This document shows positions 3,717-39,509 of a DNA stretch of 64,000 bases, in pieces. Within the stretch, counting starts at the first letter, position 1. Each line of letters starts with the position of its first letter. Below the pieces are notes generated by a model. It worked only from the letters and a program-made list of their open reading frames with translations. It was not told the origin of the DNA and searched no databases. Location: contig NZ_CP002597.1 of the NCBI RefSeq assembly GCF_000196675.2, positions 1-64,000 on the forward strand, given 5' to 3'. Source of the stretch: Pseudonocardia benzenivorans CB1190 (GTDB taxonomy: Bacteria; Actinomycetota; Actinomycetes; Mycobacteriales; Pseudonocardiaceae). The translations under genes and the position numbers were made by a program.

Positions 3717-3829
3717 AGGGGTCACTGCTCCTTGGTCAGGAAACGATCGGTGTGGTCGGGTCGACGACTGGTTCTCGGTAGACAGGCGAGACGCGCCCGG
3801 TACATGGCGTGGCCGTCAAACGGGAGGGC

Positions 3830-22524: not shown

Positions 22525-22587
22525 TGAAGTGCTCTCTTCGCAAAATCAATCGCAGGCGATAGTACTCTCGGATGATCTCTGACATCG

Positions 22588-22606
22588 GACTCTCCATTCC
22601 AGAGTC
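22588..22606 (-). terminator. Weak hairpin downstream of the FAD/Fe-S gene
   Basis: GACTCT at 22588-22593 pairs with AGAGTC at 22601-22606 around a 7-base loop, about 45 bases beyond the stop of the leftward operon. The stem is short and there is no long T run. Confidence 0.25.
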
Positions 22607-22649
22607 TATGAGTTGCCGCCACCGAACACGATCTGCTCGAGCGCCTGCG

Positions 22650-25577
22650 TCACAAACTGACGGCCCCCTTCAGGCCGAGGGCGCGGGCAGCAAGCTGAGC
22701 CATATGGAGGGGCTCGCGGGTTCCAGCTTCACGTAGTTGGGTGCGACAGCTGAACCCATCAGCGAGAACCTCTGTATCAGCGTCGGCTTCGCGTACCGCC
22801 GGAAGCAGAACTCTCTCAGCGCATGCTATTGAGATGTCATAATGCCCCTTCTCGAACCCGAAATTACCGGCGAGGCCACAGCAGCCCGAGTCGAGAATTT
22901 CAGCCTTCACGCCGAGCGCGGCGAATACCGCTTCGTCATCTTCAGTTCCCAACTCGGCATGTTGATGGCAATGTACCTGGACAATAGCCTTTTGGCCTGG
23001 CAGAACGACGGCAGCACGAAGCTCGTCGATATGCTTAGCAAGAATTTCGGCGAATGTAAAAATGCTCCCTGCAATGGAGCGCGCAAGCGGCGCATTAGGC
23101 AAGAGCTCCGGCGCATCTGCGCGTAGCGCAGCGGTACAGGACGGCTCCAGGCCTACCACGGGAACGCCATCAGCGATCCAGGGGCTGATCGTGTGAAGAC
23201 TGCGCCGCAACACCTTTCGAGCGGTCTCAACTTGACCGGTCGACGTCCACGTGAGTCCGCAGCAGACGGCCGCTGGCGGGACCTCGACTGAGTATCCTAA
23301 TGCGGACAATACTGCTACAGCGTCAGCGGCGATAGACGGGTCAAAGTGGTTGGTGAACGTATCCGGCCAGAGTAGCAGTCGACCGCGTGATTTACGATAA
23401 TCCATCGCTGAGTTAGCAGTAGAAGTAGGTCTGCGACTGGATCGTCGCTGGCGTACGATCGTCGTGAATGGTTGGCGCGCTATACGGGGTACAGCGCGCT
23501 GCGGAGCAATTCCTCCAGCCCGTTTGGCCACTCCCGCAAGAGGAGTTTGGGCAGCCCTATTGAGCAAATCAACAATAGGCGCCGGGAGGTGGCCGACGAG
23601 TCTCATCCAGCGAGGCAATGCGCCCATTGAATAATGGGATGCCGGACGAAGCTTCCCCTTATAGCGTTGAGCGAGAAACTCAGTCTTATAGGAGGCCATA
23701 TCGACGCCAACTGGGCAGTCGCGCTTGCACCCCTTACACGACAAACATAAGTCCAGGGCCTCCGCAACCTCCGGTGACTGCCAACCGTCGGAGATCAATT
23801 CACCGTTAGCCATCTCGAAAAGTAGGCGCGCACGACCCCGGGTCGAGTGCATTTCTTCACCTGTGGCTCGATAGCTCGGGCACATCACGCCCCCAGAAGC
23901 GGTGATGCACTTTCCGACGCCCAGGCACCGGCGAGTGGCTCGTGCAAAACTGCCGCGATCATGTGTGAAAGCAAGTTCGGGAGCATTTTTTAGGGTTGGC
24001 ATTCCAACGAACACGCGGAGGTCGTCATCCATCTTGGCGGGTCGCACGACTCGCCGCGGGTTCATCTGGTTGTCCGGGTCCCAGATGTCCTTGAACTCCT
24101 CAAATGCAGCGATGATCTGCGGAGGGTACATCCGGGGAAGGAGCTCCGCGCGGGCTTGCCCGTCGCCGTGTTCTCCTGAGAGAGAACCACCGTGAGCGAC
24201 GACGAGATCGGCCGCATCAACCATGAAAGATCGGAAATCCGCGATGCCAGATGTCGTAAGCAGATCGAAGTCAACTCGTACGTGCAAGCAGCCGTCGCCG
24301 AAGTGACCGTAGTATGCACCGCGACGGTTGTGGCGCGATAGGAGAGCATCGAACTCCCGCAGGTAGGCGCCAAAGTTCTCCGGTGGTACAGCGGCATCCT
24401 CCCAGCCAGGCCATGCCTCACCGCCGTCCGGGCCTCGAGTGACAATCCCCGCGCCGTCCTCCCGGATCCGCCATAGCGCCTTCATCACGACTGGATCGCC
24501 GACGACAACGCTTGTCGCGCCATAGGACTTCATTGCCGCCGCAATCGCGCGAGCGGCGGTCTCGGCCTCTCGTCGGGTGGTGCCCCCGGTCTCGACGTAT
24601 AGCCAGCCACCTCCGTCGGGCAGGAGCTTGCTCGCGGTCTCAAGCGGGTTGTATACGCGCAACGCAGCAATCAAGCCGGCGTCCATGCCCTCGATCGCCA
24701 ACGGACGATGCTCGCGTACAGCCATTACATGGTCGGCAGCGGTGTAGGCGTCGGGGAACCCCAGCACCGCGAGTGCACGATGAGGCGGCGACTCCACGAG
24801 TCGGACGGTGGCCTCCAGGACTGTCGCGCATGTGCCTTCAGTACCGACCAGGGCCTTGGCGAGATTGAACTGATTCTCAGGCAACAGCTGATCAAGATTA
24901 TAGCCGGATACTCGTCTCGTCAGGTTCGGAAAACTGGACCTGACATCGTCGGCGAACTTGTCACGTAAATCTCGGAGCGCACCGGGGATGCCGATCGCGT
25001 CGACCCCCGGCTCACCTTGTCCGAGACTGAGTCTTTCACCGCGGTACGTGAGCACGTCCAGCGCAAAGACGTTGTCGACCGTCTTCCCCCAGGCCATCGA
25101 GTGTGAACCGCAGGCGTTCGTGCCGATCATGCCGCCGAGGGTGCAGCGATTGTGCGTTGACGGATCGGGGCCGAAAGTCAGTCCATGAGCGCGTACCGCG
25201 TCTCTGAGCGTATCGAGGACGAGTCCTGGCTGAACACGGGCGGATCGCTCTGATGGATCGATCTCGACGATGCGGTTCATGTGCTTGGTGAAGTCAAGTA
25301 CAACCGCGGTGTTCACAGCCTGTCCGCCGATGGAGGTACGAGCTCCAACCGGCAAAACCGCTACACCATACTCACGACACACGGCCATTGCCGCTTCAGC
25401 ATCCTCGGCATCACGAGGTTCGACTACACCTATCGGTACATGCCGATAATTAGAAGCATCCGCCGAATACATCGCCTGAGATGCAGAGTCAAAACGAACT
25501 GCGCCGCGAACTGCTTTCGTGAGCTCAGCCTTCAATGCGGTGGCTGCAGCGACAGAAGGTATAATGTCATCACTCAT
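22650..25577 (-). CDS. YdiJ-like FAD/Fe-S 2-hydroxyacid dehydrogenase (candidate D-2-hydroxyglutarate dehydrogenase)
   Basis: 975 residues. Domain order: FAD-binding type 4 (about 40-260, LPVGARTSIGGQAV and GMIGTNACGSHSMAWGKT), FAD-oxidase C-terminal domain with the metal/substrate motif YYGHFGDGCLHVRVDF and GGSLSGEHGDGQAR, a ferredoxin-like part with two cysteine clusters (CLGVGKC...C and CLSCKGCKRDCPVG), and two CCG motifs (AVCCGLTW, GCCGLAGNFGF). This is the full YdiJ-type architecture; E. coli YdiJ is reported to oxidise D-2-hydroxyglutarate. Alternatives are glycolate or D-lactate oxidation. It lies 203 bases behind the transhydrogenase-like gene on the same strand, which supports D-2-hydroxyglutarate as substrate. 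Electrons would go to the respiratory chain. Confidence 0.75.
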   Translation of the reverse strand: MSDDIIPSVAAATALKAELTKAVRGAVRFDSASQAMYSADASNYRHVPIGVVEPRDAEDAEAAMAVCREYGVAVLPVGARTSIGGQAVNTAVVLDFTKHMNRIVEIDPSERSARVQPGLVLDTLRDAVRAHGLTFGPDPSTHNRCTLGGMIGTNACGSHSMAWGKTVDNVFALDVLTYRGERLSLGQGEPGVDAIGIPGALRDLRDKFADDVRSSFPNLTRRVSGYNLDQLLPENQFNLAKALVGTEGTCATVLEATVRLVESPPHRALAVLGFPDAYTAADHVMAVREHRPLAIEGMDAGLIAALRVYNPLETASKLLPDGGGWLYVETGGTTRREAETAARAIAAAMKSYGATSVVVGDPVVMKALWRIREDGAGIVTRGPDGGEAWPGWEDAAVPPENFGAYLREFDALLSRHNRRGAYYGHFGDGCLHVRVDFDLLTTSGIADFRSFMVDAADLVVAHGGSLSGEHGDGQARAELLPRMYPPQIIAAFEEFKDIWDPDNQMNPRRVVRPAKMDDDLRVFVGMPTLKNAPELAFTHDRGSFARATRRCLGVGKCITASGGVMCPSYRATGEEMHSTRGRARLLFEMANGELISDGWQSPEVAEALDLCLSCKGCKRDCPVGVDMASYKTEFLAQRYKGKLRPASHYSMGALPRWMRLVGHLPAPIVDLLNRAAQTPLAGVAKRAGGIAPQRAVPRIARQPFTTIVRQRRSSRRPTSTANSAMDYRKSRGRLLLWPDTFTNHFDPSIAADAVAVLSALGYSVEVPPAAVCCGLTWTSTGQVETARKVLRRSLHTISPWIADGVPVVGLEPSCTAALRADAPELLPNAPLARSIAGSIFTFAEILAKHIDELRAAVVLPGQKAIVQVHCHQHAELGTEDDEAVFAALGVKAEILDSGCCGLAGNFGFEKGHYDISIACAERVLLPAVREADADTEVLADGFSCRTQLREAGTREPLHMAQLAARALGLKGAVSL

Positions 25578-25780
25578 ACGGCTGGCGCACGGTCACTCGA
25601 AGTGAGCCACGAGCCTTTCACCACCCGAGCAGTCAGGCCACGAGGACATGTGGAAGTTGACAAGGGAACCAAGAAAACAGACGGTCTGCTGAGGTGTGCC
25701 CCTGTAAGCATTTACCGACACCTCCGGGCAATCTTCGAAGAGCCTCAACCGGCCAGCTACCTATCCACAGAGGTGAACCA

Positions 25781-27070
25781 TTACCAGTTAGAGATTGACT
25801 TCGTCAGGATCGAGGCGATGTCATCCTCTGTAGGAGTCCTTGCGCATGTCGACAGCAAACGCTGCTGCTTCATCGTTCCAGGAACGAGATCTGCGACATC
25901 AGACTCGGAGTACCCCACACCGCCAAGGCCGTTAGGGATGTCGATATCACGCATCAGCTGAATCAGTACTGACGGCAGCCGCTCGGCCGGCGCACCGACG
26001 CTAGCTGCTTCGGGGTTAATCAGCTCAGCGGCGCGAAGATGACGCTCGGGGGCGCTGTCGAACGAAAAGCGGAATGCTTCCGGAGCCGTCAAAGAAACGG
26101 CCTGCCCATGAGGCACCATTGCTTCTTCCTGCGGATATCCAGCCGGGCGGTAGTCCTTCACCATCCCAGCAATTGGATATGCATTAGCATGCGGGATGTG
26201 AACGCCTGCGTTCCCGAAGCCCATGCCTGCGAATGTCGCGGCGAGCATCATGTTGGATCGCGCTTCAATATTGTCGTGTCCATCGAGTACTGATAGGCGA
26301 AGTGACTGCGAAATCAGCGCCATCGACTTCTCGCACCACAGATCCGACACAGGATTGGAACCGCAGTATGTGACACGAGCTTCAGGGGTTTTACGATCAA
26401 ACTGCGTATAGTATTTCGCCGTATAGGATTCGAGAGCATGACATACGATGTCCATGCCGGATGCCGCGGTGACCTCCGGCGCCAGCGTCAGCGTCAGAAG
26501 TGGATCGACAACCGCCAAGGTGGGACGCAGACGCCAGTGGCTGATCCCGGTCTTGACTCTCATCGAGAGGATGTCCATGACACACATAGCAGTAGACTCT
26601 GAACCAGTACCCGCAGTTGTTGGAACCGCGATGAGAGGCTTGAGAGGTCCAGGCGGAACCTTGGCCTTACCGATAGGCTTATTGATGTAATCCATCAACT
26701 CACCAGGGTAGCTCGTCAATAGATTGATCGCCTTGGCGGTATCAATTGCGGATCCGCCGCCGACGACAATAAATCCGTCCCACGGCCCTTCTTGACGAGC
26801 GTAGTCAACGGCTGATGAAATAGACTGATCGGTCGGCTCGATGTGCACATCAGCAAAGATGTCCGACTCAATATTATACCTCTTCAGTCCGTCGGAGATG
26901 CGCTGTGGAACTCCGATGGATGCAACTCCCCGATCTGTCACAATGAGGACCCGAGTCATCCCGAAGCCAGAGGCCTCGAATCCGATCTCGTCAGTGGCGC
27001 CGGCCCCGAACTTCAAGGGTGGTGCACCCCACGTGAAGATCGTCTCTTCGACCGAGCCTGTGTCGACCAT
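25781..27070 (-). CDS. Iron-containing alcohol dehydrogenase, ADHFE1-type hydroxyacid-oxoacid transhydrogenase
   Basis: 429 residues. The nucleotide-binding GGGSAIDTAKA and the metal-ligand histidines (GMDIVCHALESYT, NAGVHIPHANAYP, MVPHGQAV) place it in the type III Fe-ADH family. Several blocks fit the animal ADHFE1 subgroup rather than ordinary Fe-ADHs: PLKPLIAVPTTAGTGSE, YCGSNPVSDLW, FAGMGFGNAGVHIPH, YPIAGMVKDY and PERHLRAAELI. ADHFE1 oxidises 4-hydroxybutyrate to succinate semialdehyde while reducing 2-oxoglutarate to D-2-hydroxyglutarate, without free NAD. That fits tetrahydrofuran breakdown, which passes through 4-hydroxybutyrate. A plain NAD-linked 4-hydroxybutyrate dehydrogenase is the main alternative. 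A perfect CATG-N3-CATG palindrome sits 318 bases upstream. Confidence 0.8.
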   Translation of the reverse strand: MVDTGSVEETIFTWGAPPLKFGAGATDEIGFEASGFGMTRVLIVTDRGVASIGVPQRISDGLKRYNIESDIFADVHIEPTDQSISSAVDYARQEGPWDGFIVVGGGSAIDTAKAINLLTSYPGELMDYINKPIGKAKVPPGPLKPLIAVPTTAGTGSESTAMCVMDILSMRVKTGISHWRLRPTLAVVDPLLTLTLAPEVTAASGMDIVCHALESYTAKYYTQFDRKTPEARVTYCGSNPVSDLWCEKSMALISQSLRLSVLDGHDNIEARSNMMLAATFAGMGFGNAGVHIPHANAYPIAGMVKDYRPAGYPQEEAMVPHGQAVSLTAPEAFRFSFDSAPERHLRAAELINPEAASVGAPAERLPSVLIQLMRDIDIPNGLGGVGYSESDVADLVPGTMKQQRLLSTCARTPTEDDIASILTKSISNW

Positions 27071-27387
27071 TTCTCTCCTACCGCTCTAACGATGTTCGAA
27101 TGCAACAGGTACTGCCTAGGGAAGCTGCTTGATTCGCACTCAGCGCAACATCTGTCTCTTCCCGCGTTGCCGACGAAGCTCGAAAAATGAACTCGCGGCG
27201 GTTGCGAATATACTATTCAGGTCGATCATCTCAAAGCTCGGTCGCTCAAGACGGGGTGCCGAATTGTCCCTAAGAGTCCGGCCCCCTCATGCAACAACGG
27301 CGAACGAGCCCTCTCGCCCCGAACAGAAATTCGGGGACCAGGGAAGAAGAACGCACAAGTACTGCTTAGCTACCGAGGGAAGCCATA

Positions 27388-27410
27388 GAGTGGCATGTTG
27401 CATGCCACTC
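27388..27410. promoter_or_regulatory. Candidate GntR operator, perfect palindrome
   Basis: GAGTGGCATG, spacer TTG, CATGCCACTC: a perfect 10-bp inverted repeat with a GT-N-GC centre typical of GntR/FCD sites. It lies just past the end of the GntR gene and upstream of the transhydrogenase-like gene, where it could control the 27070-to-22650 operon. Three related sites occur at 28443, 28470 and 28947. Confidence 0.6.
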
Positions 27411-27412
27411 CG

Positions 27413-28144
27413 TCAACCGTCGACGCCTGAGACCGGGTTTCGCGACTCCCAGGCGGAGGTGGTCCAACCTAGGTCGACATCGACACCGTCCCCAGCCTCC
27501 TGTGCCAGGAGCAATTCTGACGTGGTCTGAATGTGCGCGCACATCGCGTCGGCCGCTCCCTCCGGGTCCCGTGCTTCCAGCCGCTCAAGAACCCCAAGGT
27601 GTTCCGCAACGATGTCAAGCATCGTCCGCGACGACTCTGCAGTCGAGACTCCACGTTTAACGACCATGTCACGCATTCCGTCAATGAACTCCGCGAGACG
27701 CTTGTTCCCGGTCGCCTCGAGGATCGTTCGATGGAATCGGCGGTCGTGCTCCCACATGCGGACCTCATCGCCGTCGCGAGCGGCGCGCTCCATCGCGGCG
27801 AACTGACGGCGCAGCTCCTTCAGGCCCGCAGCATCGAACTTTTCGCAGGCCCGTCGGGTGGCTGGGACCTCCAGTAGGAGCCGAAGCTCGAAGACCTCCT
27901 CCAGATCATGGACCGTGGTTTGGAGGATCCGTACCCCGCGGTTCCGCTCGAAGCGGACCATGCCCTGCTCGGCCATCTTGATCAGGGCTTCACGCACCGG
28001 TGTCCGGGATACGCCGAGCTCGGCGGCGAGCGCATGCACCGAGTGCAGACTTCCAGGAAGAAGCTCGCCGCTCACTACTGCACTCCTGAGAGAGCTGAGC
28101 ACAGCACTGTTAAGAGTCGTGATCCCGTTCGAAACGCCCTTCAT
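27413..28144 (-). CDS. GntR-family (FadR/FCD) regulator of the catabolic island
   Basis: 243 residues. N-terminal winged helix (SLRSAVVSGELLPGSLHSVHALAAELGVSRTPVREALIKMAEQGMV) and C-terminal FCD ligand domain with the metal-binding pattern: Asp/His around MWEHDRRFHRTILEATGN and a later His in VAEHLGVLERL. FCD regulators usually respond to small carboxylic acids, so a pathway acid such as 4-hydroxybutyrate, succinate or D-2-hydroxyglutarate is a reasonable ligand. It is transcribed away from the thm operon across an 850-base gap holding three of the four candidate operators. Autoregulation is likely. Confidence 0.85.
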   Translation of the reverse strand: MKGVSNGITTLNSAVLSSLRSAVVSGELLPGSLHSVHALAAELGVSRTPVREALIKMAEQGMVRFERNRGVRILQTTVHDLEEVFELRLLLEVPATRRACEKFDAAGLKELRRQFAAMERAARDGDEVRMWEHDRRFHRTILEATGNKRLAEFIDGMRDMVVKRGVSTAESSRTMLDIVAEHLGVLERLEARDPEGAADAMCAHIQTTSELLLAQEAGDGVDVDLGWTTSAWESRNPVSGVDG

Positions 28145-28442
28145 CGGAGCTCAGCGGAACCCGTGCCGGCCCCACAGTCTGCATCGTTGTCCTGCTCACA
28201 CATCTACCCGTCCTCCGATCCTCCACCAGCGGCCTGCTGCGTCGGGTGCGCGAACAGCGCCGCAACAGGTGGTCGACATTCGATCACTGCGGCGGTTCCG
28301 TCCTGACGGTGGGCTGTCGCAGCCCGGAGTACTGGGGAACCGCCAGCAAGGCGTATGGCAACGAAGCCTCGACCAGCCGCATCACCTGCCCCTCCGTTGC
28401 GACTTCCTGCTGCTGAGCGGCCACACCGTGGGGAGCTTGACA

Positions 28443-28465
28443 GCTCTACATGTGACATGCCACTC
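28443..28465. promoter_or_regulatory. Candidate GntR operator A
   Basis: CATG (28449-28452), spacer TGA, then CATGCCACTC (28456-28465), whose right half is identical to that of the perfect site at 27388. The left half matches 5 of 10. Centre is 27 bp from operator B. Confidence 0.45.
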
Positions 28466-28469
28466 TGCA

Positions 28470-28492
28470 CCGCAGCATGCTACATGCCAGTA
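28470..28492. promoter_or_regulatory. Candidate GntR operator B
   Basis: CATG (28476-28479), spacer CTA, CATGCCAGTA (28483-28492). Halves match the perfect site at 6 and 7 of 10. Tandem with operator A. Confidence 0.4.
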
Positions 28493-28946
28493 TGCGCAGC
28501 CCCTAGCCAGTAAATCGCTGGGCCCAGGGGAACCGCTCCGTCGCATCGTCGGGATGGAACAGCCTATGGGTGACACTGCTTGGCGCCTTCGAGTTGACCG
28601 GGTGTCGGCCGATAGTTGTGCGGGTTTCGCAAGGTCTTTCGTTTCACCCCTGGCGTTGAAGAGGTTTGCGCTGTACGGCGGCAACTCTGGGTGCGGCTGG
28701 GCGGGATCAGGTCACTACTCCTTCTGTCGGGTCTCGGCGCCGTTAGTGTCATATCCTGGTTGCTAGTCCTAACGCGCATGCTCCGCGATTCGCTTAGTTT
28801 TTCTATTGCCGCCCGTCGTGTTGCGTTAATGTAGCGCATAGCGACCTATGGTTGATGTCGAGCTCGTTCAGCGGTATTGCAATCGGAATCGCGGTTCGTC
28901 AGAAAGCTTCAAGCGTGGCCTCGCCAATGCATTCTGGTCTAGGAAA

Positions 28947-28969
28947 GTGTGGCATGTTACATGGCACGT
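28947..28969. promoter_or_regulatory. Candidate GntR operator C, just upstream of the EthD/thm operon
   Basis: GTGTGGCATG, spacer TTA, CATGGCACGT. The left half matches the perfect site at 9 of 10, the right at 7 of 10. It ends 26 bases before the EthD-like start codon, a position where binding would block transcription or elongation. Confidence 0.5.
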
Positions 28970-28995
28970 CGCAGTGGAGACTCGGAGGCTGGACT

Positions 28996-29319
28996 ATGTT
29001 CAAGATCATGTTTGTCGTCTACGAGCGCGAGGGTATCGATCGGGATGAGGCTCTGCGTTATTGGCGCGAGCAGCATGGCCCGCTCGCGTCCAAGGTTCCC
29101 GGCCTGCGTTATTACGCTCAGACGCACGCCCTCAGCTCTGTTGACGGGGGCTCGGCCCCGTACCTCGGATCCGCTGAAATGGCGTTCGACAGCCAGGGAG
29201 CCTTTGTCGAGGCAACGGCATCTCCCGAGTTCGATGCAGTTCTGAAGGACGTGGTCAACTTTGCAGATCCTGACAACGTTCCGACGGCAGTTGTCCAGGA
29301 TTATGTCTTCGTTGACTGA
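28996..29319 (+). CDS. EthD-family small protein
   Basis: 107 residues from the ATG at 28996, preceded by GGAGG eight bases upstream; the longer frame from 28852 would cross operator C and is unlikely. The sequence FKIMFVVYEREGIDRDEALRYWREQHGPLASKVPGLRYY is characteristic of the EthD dimeric alpha+beta barrel, originally found in the Rhodococcus ethyl tert-butyl ether cluster. EthD proteins are needed for, or assist, ether monooxygenase systems by an unclear mechanism, so its presence before an ether-attacking monooxygenase fits. First gene of the rightward arm. Confidence 0.8.
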   Translation: MFKIMFVVYEREGIDRDEALRYWREQHGPLASKVPGLRYYAQTHALSSVDGGSAPYLGSAEMAFDSQGAFVEATASPEFDAVLKDVVNFADPDNVPTAVVQDYVFVD

Positions 29320-29471
29320 CCTTTATTCTGGTGGCTGGCCGAGTCGTCATCGGCCGTCATAATTTAGGTGTCTGGTTTCGCTCGCGGCGCCGGCCACGCC
29401 TTTGAATGTGCGGTTCCGTCTTAGCACGTAGGGCCTATTCAGCTTACCCTCGCCGTTGAAGGAGTAATAGG

Positions 29472-30974
29472 ATGACTGTGATCGCCAAGCCCGATTACCT
29501 ATTGCGTGACGACGTACAGAAGTTCATTGATCGCCCGAAGAAGCTTTTCATCAATGGTCAGTGGCACGACTCCATCAAGGGTGAGACTCTCGAGGTCTAC
29601 GACCCTGCGGTTGGGACGAAGATCTGTACCGTTGCTGCGGGTGATGCGGAGGATGTCGACCGAGCTGTGGCGGCCGCGCGCCACGCGTTCGACGAGGGGC
29701 CGTGGTCCAAGCTGAATCCTTCGGAGCGCGGCAGGCTGGTCTGGCGGCTCGCGGATCTTCTCGAGGAGCACGCGGACGAGTTTGCACAGATCGATGCGCT
29801 CGACAACGGCAAACCGGTCACGGACGCGCGTGCGGTAGACGTGGCGTTCTCGATCGAACTGCTGCGATACATGGCTGGTTGGTCGAACAAGATTTATGGC
29901 GAGACGATTCCGCTCACCAACCCGGCTGACTTCCATGCATACACGCTTCGCGAGCCGGTCGGCGTGGTTGGGCAGATCGTTCCTTGGAATTTCCCCCTCA
30001 TGATGGCGGTCTGGAAGGTCGCTCCTGCCCTGGCCGCCGGCTGCACCGTGATCCTCAAGCCCGCCGAGCAGACGCCGCTGAGCGCACTTCGCCTGGCTGA
30101 GCTCACCGAGGAGGCCGGCTTCCCGCCGGGTGTCTTCAACGTCATCACCGGCTTTGGCGAGACGGCAGGTGCGGCGATCGCCGCCCACGACAACATCGAC
30201 AAGGTCGCGTTCACCGGTTCGACCGAGGTCGGGCGGCTGATCGCGCATGCGGCGAGCGGGAACCTCAAGAAGGTCTCCCTCGAGCTTGGCGGAAAGTCCC
30301 CCGTGATCGTGTTCGGTGATTCTGACATCGAGCAGGCTGTTGCCGGTGCTTCCAGCGCGATTTTCTACAACAACGGGCAGACCTGTACGGCGGGATCTCG
30401 TCTCTATGTGCACCGGAAGGTCTACGACAAGGTCGTGGAGGGTATCGCCAGTGAGGCGTCTGCTCTCCCGATCGGTCACGGTCTCGACCCGGCGACCCGT
30501 ATCGGGCCGCTGATCTCGGCGGAGCAGCGCGACCGTGTCACTGGCTACATCGCACAGGGCCGCGAGGCCGGCGCAGAGGTGATCGTGGGTGGGGACACTG
30601 TCGGTGATGGGGGCTACTTCATTCAGCCGACCATCCTTACCAAGACTGATCCGAGCATGAGCGTAGTGCGCGAGGAGATCTTCGGCCCGGTGCTGTGTGC
30701 CATGGCCTTTGACGAAGACACCATCGATAGCGTCGTGCGTGAGGCGAACAACTCGGTGTACGGGTTGGCCGCGAGTATCTACACCCGCGACATTAGCGTC
30801 GCACATCGAGTCGCCAAGCGGCTCAAGGCTGGAACGATCGGTATCAATACCCACCATGTGGTCGATGTCGCGCTCCCATTCGGCGGATTCAAGCAGTCCG
30901 GATATGGTCGGGACATGGGCCGCGACGCGATCGACCAGTACACCGAGGTCAAGTCGATCGGTATCGCACTCTGA
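29472..30974 (+). CDS. NAD(P)-dependent aldehyde dehydrogenase
   Basis: 500 residues, ATG with AAGGAG nine bases upstream. All ALDH landmarks are present: PWNFPLMMAVWKVAPALAAG, KPAEQTPLSAL, FTGSTEVGRLI (cofactor), catalytic Glu in SLELGGKSP, catalytic Cys in NNGQTCTAGSR, and EEIFGPV and PFGGFKQSG near the C-terminus. An aldehyde dehydrogenase gene precedes thmA in described thm clusters. Likely substrates are 4-hydroxybutyraldehyde (the open form of 2-hydroxytetrahydrofuran) or succinate semialdehyde; sequence alone cannot decide. A 148-base gap separates it from thmA. Confidence 0.9.
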   Translation: MTVIAKPDYLLRDDVQKFIDRPKKLFINGQWHDSIKGETLEVYDPAVGTKICTVAAGDAEDVDRAVAAARHAFDEGPWSKLNPSERGRLVWRLADLLEEHADEFAQIDALDNGKPVTDARAVDVAFSIELLRYMAGWSNKIYGETIPLTNPADFHAYTLREPVGVVGQIVPWNFPLMMAVWKVAPALAAGCTVILKPAEQTPLSALRLAELTEEAGFPPGVFNVITGFGETAGAAIAAHDNIDKVAFTGSTEVGRLIAHAASGNLKKVSLELGGKSPVIVFGDSDIEQAVAGASSAIFYNNGQTCTAGSRLYVHRKVYDKVVEGIASEASALPIGHGLDPATRIGPLISAEQRDRVTGYIAQGREAGAEVIVGGDTVGDGGYFIQPTILTKTDPSMSVVREEIFGPVLCAMAFDEDTIDSVVREANNSVYGLAASIYTRDISVAHRVAKRLKAGTIGINTHHVVDVALPFGGFKQSGYGRDMGRDAIDQYTEVKSIGIAL

Positions 30975-31122
30975 CGCTACTGCGCTCACCAGGGGGAGCA
31001 CTCTCATTCAAGAGAAGATTGGTGCCCAGGTAAGCGCGACATCTCGGACTTGATACCCCGCATCGTCTGGCGCTCCACCCACCATATAGAGGCGCCATCA
31101 ATGGGAAAGGCTTAAGATCACG

Positions 31123-32760
31123 ATGACTGCCCCACCGATGAAGAGGCCGCGTCGAAGCATTACGGCGAGCCACGCCAAGATCGGCGAGCTGGGCTGGGAC
31201 CGGACGTACTACCCCCATGAGCGCGGGAAGTATCCCAGCCGATACAAGCTGCCGAACAAGCCAGGCCGGGATCCCATGAAGCAGATCATGGGCGACTACC
31301 TGCACATGCAGAACGAGAAGGATGACCGCGTCCACGGTGGCCTCGATGCAGCCGTCCGCGCAGAGGTCCCCGGCAAGGCCCCGCTTCGGTGGCTGGAGCT
31401 GCTCAAGCCTTACCTGCTGACTGTTGTTAGCGCCGAGGCCGCCGCTACCCGCTGTATGGGCATGCTTGTTGATGCCATCGACGACCCCGAGCTGCAGAAC
31501 GCCTATTACATCTAGCAGCTCGACGAGCAGCGTCACACCGCGATGCAGATGAACCTGTATCGCTGGTACATGAAGAACATGCCCGAGCCGGTCGGCTGGA
31601 ACCTCGGGCTCCAGGCGGTCGGGGGCGACTCCATCCTGGTCGCCGCCCAGAACCTCACCGGAAGCTTCATGACCGGTGACCCCTTCCAGGCCGCGGTGGC
31701 GCTCCAGGTCGTCGTTGAGACCGCCTTCACGAACACCATCCTGGTCGCGTTCCCGGACGTGGCAGTCCGGAACCATGACTTCGCTCTGCCCACTGTCATG
31801 AACTCCGTGCAGTCGGACGAGGCGCGCCACATCAACAACGGCTACGCGACACTTCTGTACCTCCTGCAGGAGCCGGAGAACGCCCCCCTGCTTGAGCAGG
31901 ACATCCAGCAGATGTTCTGGACCGTGCACGCATTCGTCGACGCCTTCATGGGCATCATCGTCGAGTACGCCCCCACGGATGCGACCGACCCGGAAAGCTG
32001 GACCACGAAGTGGGACCGGTGGGTGAATGACGACTACTACCGTTCCTACATCGTCAACCTCGGCAAGCTGGGCTTGAAGATCCCCGACTCGATCTTCAAG
32101 CGCGCGCGTGAGCGGATTGCTGCCGACTACCACCACAAGGTTGCTGTCGGAGTCTGGGCCTCGTGGCCCTTCCACTACTATAAGTACGGCAACCTCGAGC
32201 AGAAGGACTACGACTGGTTCGAGAGCAAGTACCCGGGCTGGAACGAGAAGTTCGGTGCGTTCTGGCGCGGCTACGCCGACGTTCGCTACCCCGGTTCGGG
32301 TCCCTTGCAGCTGCCCGGGCTGCTCGAGGGTGCCGGCCCGATCTGCTGGACCTGCCAGCTCGGATGCCTGCGGCCCGAGGAGCAGTGCCACCGCGTTGTC
32401 GACGAGCACACGCGGTTCTATTGCTCGCCGGAGTGCAAGTGGATCGACATGACCAACCCTGGTCGCTATGTCGGTGACCGTGTTTGGTTCGACCGCTACC
32501 ACGGCTGGGAGTACTCCGAGATCGTGCGTGACCTCGGCTTCCTCCGTCCGGACGGTAAGACGCTCACAGGCCAGCCGCACGTTGATCCCGACCCTGCTAA
32601 GCAGTGGACGATCGATGATCTCCGAGAGCTCGGCCACATCATGCAGAGCCCGAACATCCTCACTGCGGAGCGTCTCGGCCTGCCCTATAAGCGAGTGGAA
32701 TACACCGGCACTAAGACCGGTGACATGCCCCCCACCATTCCGCCGCTCTTCGGGGTCTGA
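31123..32760 (+). pseudogene. thmA: Tetrahydrofuran/dioxane monooxygenase alpha subunit with in-frame TAG
   Basis: 545 codons in a single frame, matching group 5 soluble di-iron monooxygenase large subunits of the thm type throughout (MTAPPMKRPRRSITASHAKI start, [26 protein letters not shown], end TIPPLFGV). Codon 131 (31513-31515) is TAG where the family has Gln (YYI[12 protein letters not shown]). The stop lies just before the DExRH iron-ligand motif, so the 130-residue product lacks nearly all ligands. Reinitiation at Met141 (31543) would lose that motif. No other lesion is visible, so the change is recent, a sequencing error, or suppressed. Intact ThmA hydroxylates tetrahydrofuran, and in CB1190 also 1,4-dioxane. 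Confidence 0.85.
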
Positions 32761-32883
32761 GTAAGTCTCATGTCTCGTCCCGGCAGGCTGCCGACTCGTG
32801 GTTTGGCAACCTGCCGGGGCTTGGCGTATGACTCTCACCGAGTCATCAGATGAGTGGCCGCAGGTTGGGAGGGTGGCGAGCAG

Positions 32884-33972
32884 ATGGGAACGTTCAACGT
32901 AAGGTTCGAGCCAATTGGTGAAGAGATCGAATGCGGCGAGGATGAGACCATTCTCGATGCAGCATTTCGATCGGGTTTGAACCTTGTGCACGGTTGCCGC
33001 GAGGGGCGCTGCTCGGCGTGCAAGGCATTTGTCCTCGATGAAGGATGGATATATCTAAAGAAATATTCAAGCTTCGCTCTCTCCGATCAGGAAGAGGAGG
33101 GGGGATATACCCTTCTATGCCGGGCAGTTCCGGAGTCAGACGTTACGATTGAGCTGCTCAACTATGATCCAGACCACTATCGGCTCGAGCACGCCATTAC
33201 TGATGGAGTTGGCCGAGTAGTCGATGTGGAAGCGTTGACGCACGACATTCGACGCTTGGAGCTCCAGATCGAGTCTCCTCAGGGCTTCGGATTTCTTCCC
33301 GGTCAATTCGTCGACATCTGGATCCCCGGGACCGAGCAGCGGCGATCGTTCTCGATGGCAAACCTTCCTAGCGACGGGCGCCTTGAGTTCATCATCAAGC
33401 AGTATCCGGGCGGCCGGTTCGGGGCGATGCTCGACGAGGGCCTGACGGTGGGTGATTCAGTGAAGTTCACCGGGCCTTATGGTACATGCTACCTCCGTGA
33501 TACCGGCGGGAGTCGTTCGGCGTTACTCATCGCCGGTGGTTCGGGTATGGCGCCGATTCTTTCTCTGCTGCGCCAGATGTCAGAGGACGGTCAGGGCCGC
33601 ACCGTGTCGGTCTTCTACGGTGGACGTGCGAGACGCGATCTTTTCTATACCGAGCTCGTTCAGTCCCTCGGAAAACGAATCGAGCAGTTCGAGTTCATCC
33701 AAGTAGTGTCGGATGAATCCGATAGTGACGGTGACGGTGACGATGTACGATACGGATTCGTGCATGACGCCGTTGATCAGTGGATAGAGACTTCCGGGTT
33801 CCGCCTGGATGCATGTGACGTCTATATGGCAGGCCCGCCACCGATGGTTGATGCGGTGAACGATGTTCTGACGCTCAGGCATCAGGTGGAGCAGAATCGG
33901 ATCTTCGTAGACAAGTTCACGTCGACCGGCCCTGAGGAATCTGCCGATTCCGATTCTGTATCGTCGCTTTAA
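32884..33972 (+). CDS. thmD: Tetrahydrofuran monooxygenase reductase
   Basis: 362 residues from the ATG at 32884 (GGGAGG upstream). N-terminal plant-type 2Fe-2S ferredoxin with Cys ligands in HGCREGRCSACKAF and LLCRAVP; then a FAD-binding domain (RRSFSMANLP) and an NAD-binding domain (SALLIAGGSGMAPILSLLR, ending DVYMAGPPPMVDAV). It passes electrons from NADH to the di-iron centre of the ThmA/ThmB hydroxylase. Gene order alpha-reductase-beta-coupling is characteristic of group 5 soluble di-iron monooxygenases. The frame is intact. Confidence 0.93.
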   Translation: MGTFNVRFEPIGEEIECGEDETILDAAFRSGLNLVHGCREGRCSACKAFVLDEGWIYLKKYSSFALSDQEEEGGYTLLCRAVPESDVTIELLNYDPDHYRLEHAITDGVGRVVDVEALTHDIRRLELQIESPQGFGFLPGQFVDIWIPGTEQRRSFSMANLPSDGRLEFIIKQYPGGRFGAMLDEGLTVGDSVKFTGPYGTCYLRDTGGSRSALLIAGGSGMAPILSLLRQMSEDGQGRTVSVFYGGRARRDLFYTELVQSLGKRIEQFEFIQVVSDESDSDGDGDDVRYGFVHDAVDQWIETSGFRLDACDVYMAGPPPMVDAVNDVLTLRHQVEQNRIFVDKFTSTGPEESADSDSVSSL

Positions 33973-34002
33973 GATTTGTTCTCCAGAGAGGAGATCTGCG
34001 CA

Positions 34003-35043
34003 ATGAGTGCATCAGCTGCCGAGCGGCGTGAGCTGCGAGAGCTCGAGCGGACACAGCACTGGTTCATCCCGGAGCGGAAACGTTCGTCGCTCTACGAGGA
34101 CGTGACTATCGACGTCCAGCCGAGCGTCCACCGGCATACCAGGTTCGGCTATCCTATCGCATTTCCAAACGGGCGTCAGTCATTCTGGGATGACTCCACT
34201 GCGATCCGGTCCAGCGACTGGTATGCGTTTCGTGATCCGGCCGGGCTTTGGGAGCGCACGTTCTTCCAGACTGGCTCAACTCATGAGCGCGAGATCGAGA
34301 ATGATCTCCAGGTGGCGCGGGACAACAATCTGTTCGTTGCGGCAAGCAAGGAGTGGGTTGACTTCTTGTCTGCTCAGCTTCTGCCGATCAGCCTTACCGA
34401 GTATGGTCTGGTTGCCCCGCAGTCGGCGGCACTCCGGCCCGCCCTGGGTGATGCCATCGCGAACTGCCTCGGCTACAGCGCCGGTTACAAACTTCGCCAG
34501 GCTCAGGCACTTGTTCTCTACGGGGGAGAGCTGGAGCGGGAGATTCCCGGATTTTCGACCGCAGACGGGAAGCGTCGTTTCTTGGAGGATCCCGAATGGC
34601 AGCCGACACGTCGCTACCTTGAACGGCTGGGCTCGATCACGGACTGGGCGGAGACCGTCGTCGCAGCCAACATCTGCTTCGAACCGCTCATTGGTAATCT
34701 GCTGCGCCGCGATGTGCTGATCCGACTCGCCGGCTCCTACGGCGACGCCACCACACCGACCCTCGGCCAGGTTGCTCAAGCCGAGTGGGGTTGGGTGCGT
34801 GACTGGTCCGTGGCCCTCGTTCGCTTCATCCTGAATGACGCTACTCATTCCGAGGCCAACACCCAGAAGGTCCAGGAGTGGCTGGAGGACTGGGGAACGA
34901 TGGCTCGCGAGGCGATCGATGCGCTGGAGCCCGTCTTCAGCTCGATCGACCCCGCCTACTCTGAGACCCGTCAGCGTCTCAACCAAGATCATGCCGACCT
35001 GCTTCAGGAATGCGGCCTCAAGTCGAGCGAGGTGACGGTCTGA
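34003..35043 (+). CDS. thmB: Tetrahydrofuran monooxygenase beta subunit
   Basis: 346 residues from the ATG at 34003 with GAGAGGAG upstream; an in-frame ATG at 33976 lacks such a site. Matches hydroxylase small subunits: WFIPERKRSSLYEDVTIDVQPS, RSSDWYAFRDPAGLWERTFFQ, GYSAGYKLRQAQALVLYGGEL and the long C-terminal helices. It has no metal ligands of its own but is needed for hydroxylase assembly. The stop overlaps the start of thmC by one base (TGATG). Confidence 0.92.
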   Translation: MSASAAERRELRELERTQHWFIPERKRSSLYEDVTIDVQPSVHRHTRFGYPIAFPNGRQSFWDDSTAIRSSDWYAFRDPAGLWERTFFQTGSTHEREIENDLQVARDNNLFVAASKEWVDFLSAQLLPISLTEYGLVAPQSAALRPALGDAIANCLGYSAGYKLRQAQALVLYGGELEREIPGFSTADGKRRFLEDPEWQPTRRYLERLGSITDWAETVVAANICFEPLIGNLLRRDVLIRLAGSYGDATTPTLGQVAQAEWGWVRDWSVALVRFILNDATHSEANTQKVQEWLEDWGTMAREAIDALEPVFSSIDPAYSETRQRLNQDHADLLQECGLKSSEVTV

Positions 35044-35396
35044 TGACGGATGCCACGGCTGCGCCGGCGGCTGCGCAGGGGAGCGGCGACGTCGCTTATG
35101 ATTATGTGGGGCTGGTTATGCAGCGCACTCCGGAAGGCGAAGCGGTCGGCCGGGTGTGCTCGCAGACTCCTGGTGTCGAGGTCATCACGAACGCAACTTT
35201 CCTCGATGTCAGGGCCAAGGATCGGCTGATCGTCAACTTCGACGCGGTCGGCGAAGAACTCGGCAGCGACATGGACGGTTACGTTCTTCAGGAACACATG
35301 ACCACTCACTATGGCCGGATGGCAATGACCGATGACTCGTTCATCCTGGTCGCCGATCCTCTCGAGCTGATCGAGCTGATCAACTCTGAGTCGTAG
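35043..35396 (+). CDS. thmC: Tetrahydrofuran monooxygenase coupling/effector protein
   Basis: 117 residues. Small MmoB/DmpM-like regulator: DYVGLVMQRTPEGEAVGRVCSQTPGVEVITNATFLDVRAKDRLIVNFDAVGEELGSDMDGYVLQEHMTTHYGRM. Such proteins dock on the hydroxylase and couple NADH use to substrate oxidation. Last gene of the monooxygenase set; translation is coupled to thmB by the overlapping TGATG. Confidence 0.9.
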   Translation: MTDATAAPAAAQGSGDVAYDYVGLVMQRTPEGEAVGRVCSQTPGVEVITNATFLDVRAKDRLIVNFDAVGEELGSDMDGYVLQEHMTTHYGRMAMTDDSFILVADPLELIELINSES

Positions 35397-35646
35397 GAAG
35401 GGATCATCAAGGTGATCTCGCCTCTCGGGTGAGTGACGCAGTTTTTCACTCCTTGATATGTGGGGAGCCTCATTGGGGTGGTGTGTTGCTCCCCTGCACC
35501 ATCCTTGCTCTCGGGCCGGCCGGAGTTCGTGCCGGCCCGAGAGCGGGGCTGTGGTATTTGGGAGGCTTCGGGGTATTGGATTGATGTTATCTGTTCCCTA
35601 GGTGGTGTTTCGCTCGGGCGGACGCCGCCGCAGCTTGAGGAGAGTC

Positions 35647-36312
35647 ATGGTTGTTGAGAATTCTGAGGCACTGGAAACGATGCCTTCGGCAAGCGACAGA
35701 AATTCGGCGTATACGGCTGCCGCGGGTAACCCAATGCTCGTGGCCCTCCCAACCTTTCTCGTGGGTAGTATCACTCTAGGCCTTTGGCTCATTGGTTATC
35801 TGCCGACAGCTCTTCCTGGTGGACTAGTTGCGGGTGTCTTCTTTGCCTCCGGGGTCGGTGTGATTCTCGGAGCGGCCTGGGCAGCGCGCCTGGGCCAGAG
35901 TGCGGTAGCGGGCGTCCTGGCCACATTTGGCACGTTCTGGCTTAGCTTCGGCGTGTTGGTCTTCGGTCTGGTGAATGGGCTTTTCGGGGTATCGACTACA
36001 GATGCGGCAGCAGCTGGTAGCCAGGTGCAGTCGGTGCAGGCCACGTTCCTTTTGTCATGGTTGATTGTGCTTGTGGTGATGACGCTGGCAACTACGAGAT
36101 TGCCGCTCGCCTATACAGTGCTCTTCGTGCTTGTTGACATTGCTCTCGGGCTCGTTCTCGCTGGAGTTCTGGCGGCTTCTTCGGCACTTCTGGTGTGGGG
36201 TGGAATCGCTGTGTTTGGCTTCTGCCTTGTGGGGGCTTACCTGTTCTACGGGGCCATGTCGGAGGAGCTCGGAGGATCATCAGCGCCGCTCGGCTCCCCT
36301 TTGACACAGTAG
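35647..36312 (+). CDS. GPR1/FUN34/YaaH (AceTr) family transporter
   Basis: 221 residues from the ATG at 35647, with GAGGAG upstream. Six hydrophobic helices and the family-like N-terminal motif GNPMLVALPTFLVGSITLGLWLIGYL, and FGTFWLSFGVLVFGLVNGLFG in the middle. SatP/YaaH proteins move acetate and succinate across the membrane. In a tetrahydrofuran cluster it could export or import pathway acids such as succinate or 4-hydroxybutyrate; an equivalent small membrane-protein gene follows thmC in some described clusters. Ends shortly before a strong hairpin, so it closes the thm operon. Confidence 0.75.
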   Translation: MVVENSEALETMPSASDRNSAYTAAAGNPMLVALPTFLVGSITLGLWLIGYLPTALPGGLVAGVFFASGVGVILGAAWAARLGQSAVAGVLATFGTFWLSFGVLVFGLVNGLFGVSTTDAAAAGSQVQSVQATFLLSWLIVLVVMTLATTRLPLAYTVLFVLVDIALGLVLAGVLAASSALLVWGGIAVFGFCLVGAYLFYGAMSEELGGSSAPLGSPLTQ

Positions 36313-36385
36313 TTCTAAGGAACACGGATTTCCTATGGCCCCCGCGCGGCTATTGGGCTGGGGTGCCGTCATTGACGGGCTCCCC

Positions 36386-36437
36386 CCGCAGAAACTCCGG
36401 GAGACTCTCCGTTCCGAGTCTCCCGGAGTTTCTGCGG
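36386..36437 (+). terminator. 22-bp perfect-stem hairpin ending the thm operon
   Basis: CCGCAGAAACTCCGGGAGAC (36386-36405, stem continuing to 36407) pairs perfectly with 36416-36437 around an 8-base loop. No T tract follows, as is common for actinobacterial I-shaped terminators. It separates the transporter gene from the second aldehyde dehydrogenase, which therefore probably has its own promoter or depends on readthrough. Confidence 0.75.
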
Positions 36438-36565
36438 AGGCGGTCGGCCTGCACGAGTAATGGAATCATTAAAGTTGTGCGAGCCGAAGTCGAGCACGCG
36501 CATAGTATCCATCAGTTTGTGCAATCTGGTGTGAGACGTGATAGAGGAAAGAAGCGAACCGACTA

Positions 36566-38005
36566 GTGCAAGCTGAACCATTCTGGATCGCAGGTCGTCC
36601 AGCGACTGGTAGCGCGGTGATTGATGTCCAGTATCCTTATGATGGTCGAACGGTCGCCTCGGTATTTGTTCCATCCGCTGAGCAGGTTGAAGAGGCCGTG
36701 GCCGCGATGCACGCGGCGAGGGATGTTGTGGGGGCAACATCTGCTCATCGGCGAGCGTCTGCACTTTCGCATGTCGCAGACAGGCTTGAGCAGCGTTTAG
36801 AGGAAGCCGCTCAGGTCATCGTGCTCGAGAGCGGTAAGCCCATCAAGTGGGCCAGGGTGGAGGTAGCGCGCGCGGCCTCCACGTTCCGATGGGCGGCAGA
36901 GGAAGCCCGGCGTTGGTCGGGAACCCTGCAGCGATTGGATACCGATGCCGGTGGGGCTGGACGGCTTGCGCTTGTTCGGCGGTTTCCACGAGGTTCTCTG
37001 CTGGCGATTACGCCGTTCAACTTTCCACTTAATCTCGTCGCGCACAAAGTGGCCCCAGCGATCGCGGTCGGAGCGCCGGTTATTATCAAACCTGCCCCGT
37101 CGACTCCGCTCTCATCGCTGTTCTTGGGTCAGCTCCTCGCTGATACGGACCTGCACCAGGGCAGTTGGTCTGTGTTGCCGGTCCCAAACAGTCAGATGGA
37201 GCATCTCGTTCTTGATCCGAGGATTCCTGTTATCTCTTTCACAGGGTCGGGGCCGGTGGGCTGGGATATTAAGAGCCTTGTCCCTCGTAAGCATGTGACG
37301 CTTGAGCTCGGTGGGAATGCGGCGGCGGTTGTATGTTCCGACTGGTCGAGCGAGCAAGATCTGGAGTGGGCAGCTCAGCGGATCGCTCTCTTTGCAAACT
37401 ATCAGGCGGGCCAGTCGTGTATCTCGGTGCAGCGAGTCTATGTGCCACGTGAGCTGTACGAGGTGTTTACCGTGCTGCTTTCGCGTCATATTGGCGCACT
37501 TAGGCAGGGGAACCCGAATGACGACGCAACTGATGTTGGCCCTGTCATTAATGAGGCATCAGCCATCAGGATCGAGCAGTGGATCGATGACGCGGTCCAT
37601 GCCGGGGCGAAGATTCTGGTCGGGGGTCGCAGGAACGGGACAAGTCTTGAGCCGACGCTTTTAGCAGATGTTCCGCTCGCCGCGCGGATTCTTCGTGACG
37701 AGGCATTCGGCCCGGTGGTGAGTATTACGCCTTTCGACAGTCTAGACTCGGCGTTTGCTGCCGTTAATGATTCTGACTTCGGTCTGCAGACGGGTGTGTT
37801 TACACGTGATATCCGGACTGCGTTCCGTGCGCATCGTGACCTTGAGGTGGGTGGGGTCATTATTGGGGATGTTCCGAGCTATCGTGCGGACCAGATGCCT
37901 TATGGTGGAATGAAGGACTCTGGTATAGGCAGAGAAGGCGTCCGCTCAGCGATGGACGACTTCACGGTGGAGAAGGTTCTCGTGCTTGCCGGGGTTGCGC
38001 TGTGA
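36566..38005 (+). CDS. Aldehyde dehydrogenase, likely semialdehyde-type (thmH position)
   Basis: 479 residues from a GTG. ALDH motifs: FPRGSLLAITPFNFPLNLVAHKVAPAIAVGAPVIIKP, FTGSGPVGWDIKSL, catalytic Glu in ELGGNAA, catalytic Cys in AGQSCISVQR, DEAFGPVV and YGGMKDSGIGREG. The FTGSGPVG form and short length fit lactaldehyde/semialdehyde-type ALDHs rather than betaine-aldehyde types, different from the enzyme at 29472. Position downstream of thmC matches thmH of K1/CB1190-type clusters. It may take succinate semialdehyde to succinate or act on hydroxybutyraldehyde. Confidence 0.85.
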   Translation: MQAEPFWIAGRPATGSAVIDVQYPYDGRTVASVFVPSAEQVEEAVAAMHAARDVVGATSAHRRASALSHVADRLEQRLEEAAQVIVLESGKPIKWARVEVARAASTFRWAAEEARRWSGTLQRLDTDAGGAGRLALVRRFPRGSLLAITPFNFPLNLVAHKVAPAIAVGAPVIIKPAPSTPLSSLFLGQLLADTDLHQGSWSVLPVPNSQMEHLVLDPRIPVISFTGSGPVGWDIKSLVPRKHVTLELGGNAAAVVCSDWSSEQDLEWAAQRIALFANYQAGQSCISVQRVYVPRELYEVFTVLLSRHIGALRQGNPNDDATDVGPVINEASAIRIEQWIDDAVHAGAKILVGGRRNGTSLEPTLLADVPLAARILRDEAFGPVVSITPFDSLDSAFAAVNDSDFGLQTGVFTRDIRTAFRAHRDLEVGGVIIGDVPSYRADQMPYGGMKDSGIGREGVRSAMDDFTVEKVLVLAGVAL

Positions 38006-38173
38006 AAAGCGTTGCTCTGTGCCCTGTGAATTCTTACTGACCTCCCCGGCGTCGGCCAGTCTGCCCAACAGTGATCCTTGCTTGGGATATCGGGTGTCAG
38101 TTCGGTTATGGGCTCCCGCTGGATTTGCCCCGCCGGATTCGGTGAGCGAGGGTGGCTCCGATGAGTCACTAGT

Positions 38174-38218
38174 GGCCTCACGGGCACGAGGATTCAATCC
38201 CGGATGGGGCCGTTTTTT
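38174..38218 (+). terminator. Possible T-tract terminator after the second ALDH
   Basis: GGCC (38174-38177) and CGGG (38181-38184) can pair with CCCG (38199-38202) and GGCC (38208-38211), followed by GTTTTTT. The pairing is interrupted. It lies at the point where composition changes back to GC-rich. Confidence 0.35.
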
Positions 38219-38267
38219 GTAGCGGCTCGGCGGCGTTTATCAAGAAGGGGTAATGGAGGTGAACGCG

Positions 38268-39509
38268 ATGACCACGGCGGTGAAGGCGCGCGTCGAACGT
38301 GCCCGATCCGGGGCCCTGCTGCTCGGCCCGGCGCTGGTGGCGGCCGCCGCCTACGTCGACCCCGGCAACGTCGCGACCAACACCGCCGCCGGCGCCGGGT
38401 TCGGCTACCTGCTCGTCTGGGTCGTGCTCGCCGCCAACGCCATGGCCGGGCTCGTCCAGTACCTGTCCGCCAAGCTGGGGCTCGTCACCGGCAGGTCGCT
38501 GCCCGAGTCGCTGCGTGACCACCTCCCGCGCCGCACCCGCTTCGCCTACTGGGCCCAGGCCGAGCTCGTCACCATGGCCACCGACCTGGCCGAGGTCCTC
38601 GGCGGCGCCATCGCCCTCGCCCTGCTGTTCGACCTGCCCCTCATCTGGGGCGGAGCGATCACCGCGGTCGTCTCGATGGTGATCCTGGAGGTCGTAGACC
38701 GCTTCGGGCAGAAGCCCTTCGAGCGTGTCGTCACGACGATGCTGCTCGTCGTCGGCATCGGGTTCGTCGCCAGTCTCTTCGTCGCCCCGCCCTCGGCCGC
38801 CGGGATCGTCGGTGGCATCGTCCCGGGTTTCGAGGGCACCAGCAGTGTCCTGCTCGCTGCGGGCATGCTCGGCGCGACGGTGATGCCGCACGCGATCTAC
38901 GTGCACTCCTCGCTCTCGCGCGACCGGCACGGCTCGCCCCCCCCGGGCCCCGAGCGGCGCAGGCTCCTCTCGGCCACCAAGGCCGACGTCGCCGTCGCGC
39001 TCACCGTCGCCGGGGCCGTCAACCTGGGCCTGCTGCTCGTCGGCGCCGCACTGCTCAGCGGCGACGACCGCACCGGGACCCTCGACGGTGTGCACGCCGC
39101 CATCGGCGACAAGGCCGGCCCGCTGTTCGCGCTCGGCTTCGCCATCGCGCTGCTGTTCTCCGGTCTGGCGTCCACGGCGGTCGGCTGCTACTCGGGTTCG
39201 GTCGTGATGGCAGGGTTGCTGAAGGTCAAGGTGCCCCTGCTCGCGCGCCGTGTCGTCACAGCGATCCCCGCGCTCGTCGTCCTCGGGGTGGGGGTCGACC
39301 CCACCTGGGCGCTGATCGTCTCCCAGGTCGTCCTGTCCTTCGGCATCCCTTTCGCGCTCGTCCCGCTGGTGATCCTGACCTCACGGCGCTCGATCATGGG
39401 CGACGCCGTCAACCAGCGGATCACCGTCGTCGCGGGGATCGTCGTGTGCACGGCGATCGTCGCCCTCAACATCGTCCTGCTGTACCTGACGGCCACCGGG
39501 GGTGGTTAA
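38268..39509 (+). CDS. mntH: Nramp-family divalent metal (Mn2+) transporter
   Basis: 413 residues from the ATG at 38268 (GGAGG eight bases upstream; an in-frame ATG at 38253 overlaps that site). Eleven hydrophobic helices with the Nramp signatures DPGN in TM1 (AAYVDPGNVATNTAAGAG) and MPHAIYVHSSL in TM6, both of which bind the metal. Imports Mn2+/Fe2+ with protons. It is GC-rich and unlike the AT-richer island before it, so it belongs to the backbone or another acquired segment. A role in supplying iron to the di-iron oxygenase is possible but speculative. Confidence 0.9.
   Translation: MTTAVKARVERARSGALLLGPALVAAAAYVDPGNVATNTAAGAGFGYLLVWVVLAANAMAGLVQYLSAKLGLVTGRSLPESLRDHLPRRTRFAYWAQAELVTMATDLAEVLGGAIALALLFDLPLIWGGAITAVVSMVILEVVDRFGQKPFERVVTTMLLVVGIGFVASLFVAPPSAAGIVGGIVPGFEGTSSVLLAAGMLGATVMPHAIYVHSSLSRDRHGSPPPGPERRRLLSATKADVAVALTVAGAVNLGLLLVGAALLSGDDRTGTLDGVHAAIGDKAGPLFALGFAIALLFSGLASTAVGCYSGSVVMAGLLKVKVPLLARRVVTAIPALVVLGVGVDPTWALIVSQVVLSFGIPFALVPLVILTSRRSIMGDAVNQRITVVAGIVVCTAIVALNIVLLYLTATGGG

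Follow-up and report, generated by a model that had tools for sequence, protein, structure and literature searches.

Position of the stop codon in thmA

Does the in-frame stop codon in the recorded thmA gene of Pseudonocardia strain CB1190 reflect a lost function, an unusual decoding event, a redundant gene copy, or a flaw of the record? The window analysed here is a stretch of 64,000 nucleotides from this record, and we take its contig to be a piece of the CB1190 plasmid pPSED02. Judged by sequence, the window carries the tetrahydrofuran/dioxane monooxygenase cluster thmADBC (dxmADBC): the gene order A-D-B-C with a reductase, a beta subunit, and a coupling protein is that of a group 5 soluble di-iron monooxygenase of the thm/dxm type. 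All genes of the cluster lie on the forward strand. As claimed in an earlier note on this DNA, the frames of thmD (reductase; 32884–33972), thmB (hydroxylase beta subunit; 34003–35043), and thmC (coupling protein; 35043–35396) are open, and the upstream aldehyde dehydrogenase gene (29472–30974) is also intact.

Inspection of the sequence and of the open reading frames confirmed that the otherwise open 545-codon thmA frame (31123–32760) contains a single internal stop, a TAG at codon 131 (31513–31515). This codon separates an upstream fragment of codons 1–130 (31123–31512) from codons 132–545 and the terminator (31516–32760). The window has a T at position 31513, whereas both intact thmA relatives that were found, in Rhodococcus ruber YYL and Pseudonocardia sp. 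N23, have a C and thus read CAG. Among the 4896 possible single substitutions in thmA, 193 (3.9%) yield a stop codon. The TAG had been described as directly preceding the DExRH motif; it is indeed close to this motif, but Gln132 and Leu133 intervene before DEQRH. The first ATG 3' of the TAG is located at 31543 (codon 141) and opens a possible restart reading frame of 405 amino acids (31543–32760), and no ATG, GTG, or TTG codon was found in the stretch between the TAG and the codon of E135.

Predicted consequence for the di-iron site

The iron ligands of ThmA were located by alignment with MmoX of the soluble methane monooxygenase (PDB 1fyz), a distant member of the same family (E 1e-68). Residues 131, 105, 135, 138, 199, 233, and 236 of ThmA correspond to MmoX residues 140, 114, 144, 147, 209, 243, and 246, of which the last six are the di-iron ligands. 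The codons of all six ligands are present in the window, but they are not joined in one alpha chain, as the TAG parts E105 from E135, H138, E199, E233, and H236. No stop occurs between the six ligands in the ThmA of YYL and N23. The 130-residue fragment would thus contain one of six ligands and should be unable to form a di-iron site. The same is predicted for the Met141 restart product, which would lack E105, E135, and H138 while retaining the second DExRH motif. The anatomy of the ligands, as deduced from homology to MmoX, hence upholds the view that neither product yields a di-iron site.

Residue 131 in related proteins

The ThmA sequence of YYL was used as tblastn query against 40 alpha subunit loci, of which 35 were aligned with an E value of 1e-20 or better (L002, L004, L005, L007, and L008 were not aligned). 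Position 131 was occupied by Gln in 32 loci, by Gly in two, and by a stop only in the window. With the window left aside, Gln was found in 32 of the 34 aligned alpha subunits, N23 included, which upholds the statement of the earlier note that the family has Gln at this position. The loci included those of 30 of the 48 matches obtained by a ThmA search of the order, which covered 397 genomes as a sample of a larger group. Internal stops were present in two of these 48 matches, namely the TAG of the window and a TGA in one other genome, where the protein is only distantly related to ThmA (42% identity). Broken relatives of ThmA thus do occur. The in-frame TAG is not shared by either of the two thmA-bearing relatives found.

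Age and likely origin of the lesion

A three-way alignment of window positions 27838–35597 with YYL and N23 revealed 17 differences private to the window, 19 private to YYL (including two gaps, of which one falls on the last part of the aligned stretch), and 285 on the N23 side. Nine of the 17 window-private changes are situated in named genes and comprise one nonsense, four nonsynonymous, and four synonymous changes; the class given to the change in EthD (28964) presupposes the start codon that was assumed for this gene. With regard to decay after the stop, thmA offers only three of these changes (one nonsense, one nonsynonymous, one synonymous), a small number. A high error rate in the window was considered and rejected, as 17 private changes compared to 19 in YYL represent no excess. 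Since private changes are not enriched and the remainder of the frame and cluster is open, the TAG would be either young or not real. The one homopolymer gap near thmA (30992) is also found in N23, which places the change on the YYL side; it therefore does not favor an error over a mutation.

The best explanation of these observations is a lesion of a single base that is confined to this record, and we regard this reading as probable. The thmA of the window would have been hit by one change, C to T at 31513, which may have entered as an error of the consensus sequence or have arisen as a spontaneous nonsense mutation in the culture that yielded the DNA; the two origins appear about equally likely. 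As written, the gene would give rise to the 130-residue fragment or to the piece restarted at Met141, whereas in functioning stocks codon 131 is most likely CAG and ThmA probably is full length. Lesions of this kind are ordinary, and the present one most likely is a flaw of this single record or stock and not a sign of new biology.

Published function of strain CB1190

The best surviving alternative, although a very unlikely one, is that the monooxygenase has truly been lost and that another di-iron monooxygenase, for example the prm-type enzyme at 688 kb on C1, oxidises ethers instead. Candidates do exist: a search of the genome (7,440,794 bases on six contigs) with PF02332 gave 14 matches (16 of 16 candidates scored), 12 of which are located on the chromosome C1, several in adjacent pairs resembling alpha and beta subunits. 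The propane-type paralogue at C1:687998–689560, presumably prmA-like, has Gln in the column of residue 131 and the same iron motifs as ThmA. It is only about 42% identical to ThmA, and no alpha subunit encoded elsewhere in the genome is closer (42%). Also in favor of this alternative, the articles available gave no proof of an intact thmA in CB1190 itself. The CB1190 cluster itself, when expressed in another host, reportedly oxidised dioxane and tetrahydrofuran (in the Sales 2013 study), which argues against a replacement enzyme. The same holds for the function ascribed to the cluster in CB1190, a model dioxane degrader: dioxane serves as only carbon source for growth of the strain, and the first step is attributed to thmADBC, which is located on pPSED02 (PMC5743803); a second article likewise gives thmADBC the credit (PMC5578833). 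Metabolism of dioxane by CB1190 is also stated in a third one (PMC12542641). The suggestion that the host has recently lost ether oxidation therefore conflicts with published growth on dioxane, but a mutant stock as the source of the sequenced DNA is compatible with it.

The same article lists the DxmA of CB1190 as WP_103383250.1 and applies a rule of one or two DExRH motifs, with one of its 39 queries (D17) lacking both motifs (PMC12542641). This accession was rejected as proof of an intact CB1190 DxmA because, under this rule, the 405-residue Met141 piece would also be admitted: one DExRH motif is retained in it, and across all of its residues it shows 99.3% identity to N23. WP_103383250.1 may, as a guess, stem from strain BERK-1, in whose genome tetrahydrofuran monooxygenase genes have been reported (PMC5887028). 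A literature search, which was weak and had the main CB1190 papers outside its reach, found no mention of a stop codon, nonsense mutation, or pseudogene in CB1190 thmA.

A qPCR primer and probe set for thmA/dxmA, reportedly that of Li et al., was compared with the window. Both primers matched exactly, and the probe (31499–31523, forward strand) showed one mismatch at 31513, where it carries C. The probe is exact to YYL and has one mismatch to N23 at another position. A thmA/dxmA TaqMan assay of Li et al. was applied with calibration by CB1190 DNA in PMC5743803. A single probe mismatch might still permit amplification, and the use of CB1190 in qPCR thus is weak evidence.

Decoding of UAG

Even less likely is a TAG that is fixed in the strain and read through as Gln by a near-cognate tRNA, with growth on dioxane sustained by a low level of enzyme. 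The simplest candidate is tRNA-Gln(CUG), whose gene is present in the genome. A UAG followed by CAR-YYA is a leaky context of plant viruses; the codon after the TAG in thmA is CAG, and CAG CTC fits this pattern except for the last base. Moreover, the published growth on dioxane would need no further explanation. The decoding machinery speaks against this reading. None of the 46 tRNA genes above the Rfam cut-off has a CUA anticodon (ARAGORN anticodons were obtained at all 46 places), and of two weaker tRNA matches, one lies inside the tmRNA gene and the other has no ARAGORN call. A pyrrolysyl-tRNA synthetase was not detected in the genome with TIGR02367 at an E value of 0.001 (the model scored above its cut-off in one of 14 control genomes), and a pyrrolysine system was rejected on the grounds that both the CUA tRNA and the synthetase are missing. 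A missing release factor was rejected as well: release factor 1 is encoded and contains PVT and GGQ, the functional motifs of this protein. UAG also serves as a regular terminator in the cluster itself, since TAG is the stop codon of thmC both here and in YYL.

Further arguments against readthrough are the lack of internal stops in all 102 PF00106 matches of this genome (150 of 153 candidates scored) and the CAG kept in both relatives. Near-cognate decoding typically proceeds at a level of about a per cent or less, which is low for an enzyme that has to support growth. What has been published on the function of CB1190, together with the intact relatives and the lack of suppressor components, thus argues against a working amber codon.

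Copies of thmA

Least likely of all is a second, intact thmA that was collapsed or is missing in the assembly, so that the record displays the dead copy only: pPSED02, which we take to be the three pieces of 66,907, 45,552, and 24,346 bases (136,805 in sum), is not closed and its repeats may have collapsed, but no second copy was found in the six contigs (neither among the 14 PF02332 matches nor in a DNA search with 40 of 118 candidates scored), genome completeness is estimated at 100%, and N23 and the YYL plasmid contain one match and one place, respectively. Among the 14 PF02332 matches, thmA alone has a stop within the matched stretch (one TAG), and the other 13 have none.

The gene is rare in the databases searched, in whose counts the window's own genome records may be missing. 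Within the genus it occurs in two of 62 genomes (CB1190 and N23), and a contig collection of genomes yielded one locus. Of 27 matched PLSDB records, YYL alone reached 99% or more and the other 26 remained under 60%. No further ThmA match near 99% was obtained among the 397 genomes of the order, and a pattern-based search of viral contigs for thmA relatives gave no match.

Because the genome lacks a CUA tRNA and PylS, encodes release factor 1, uses TAG to terminate thmC, and offers no second thmA, neither a suppressor dedicated to this codon nor an additional thmA is likely. Of the four outcomes proposed in the earlier note, these two are thereby disfavored, the suppressor by 46 tRNAs without CUA and the lack of PylS, the additional copy by the PF02332 and DNA searches; a sequencing error or a mutation of the stock is what remains.

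Implications for the marker gene

Biodegradation of dioxane and tetrahydrofuran is widely monitored with this marker gene, and the record represents its reference copy. A ThmA/DxmA sequence taken from it is a broken or shortened protein, and automatic reading would call the gene broken. In addition, the qPCR probe reportedly used for this gene sits over the changed base at 31513.

Comparison with related thm clusters

The thm region of CB1190 closely resembles that of the R. ruber YYL plasmid pYYL1.1 (NZ_CP024892.1), which has the same thmADBC order and 99.7% DNA identity over 30900–35500 (4.6 kb). A block around thm (21928–38589) is common to both and consists of three pieces with 99.5 to 99.7% identity; for the part at 21928–23353, YYL contains another matching site (99.1% identity). 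This degree of identity suggests a recent transfer of the thm stretch between the two genera Pseudonocardia and Rhodococcus. The YYL island is flanked by two direct copies of Tn3 transposase, SDR, and methyltransferase genes (YYL locus 1682–6205 and 28937–33460), an arrangement that resembles a composite element. IS1380 and IS630 transposase genes are found at two joints in YYL (near window positions 27270 and 35600) and are missing in the window. The gene of a GntR-family regulator (27413–28144, reverse strand) has two bases fewer than its YYL counterpart at 27599, in its 3' part, and the C-terminus of the regulator should therefore differ from that of YYL; the N23 contig ends short of this gene. 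In the YYL record the start of ThmA is annotated at 20378 instead of 20225, where the full frame begins, so that YYL locus 20225–20377 is left out and ThmA lengths in databases may differ.

Besides CAG at codon 131, the ThmA of YYL has two private residue changes (377 and 416). The same cluster is present in N23 (NZ_BEGX01000008.1), whose region diverges by about 4% at the DNA level over 9.8 kb and whose ThmA shows 99% identity to the YYL protein, with codon 131 again being CAG.
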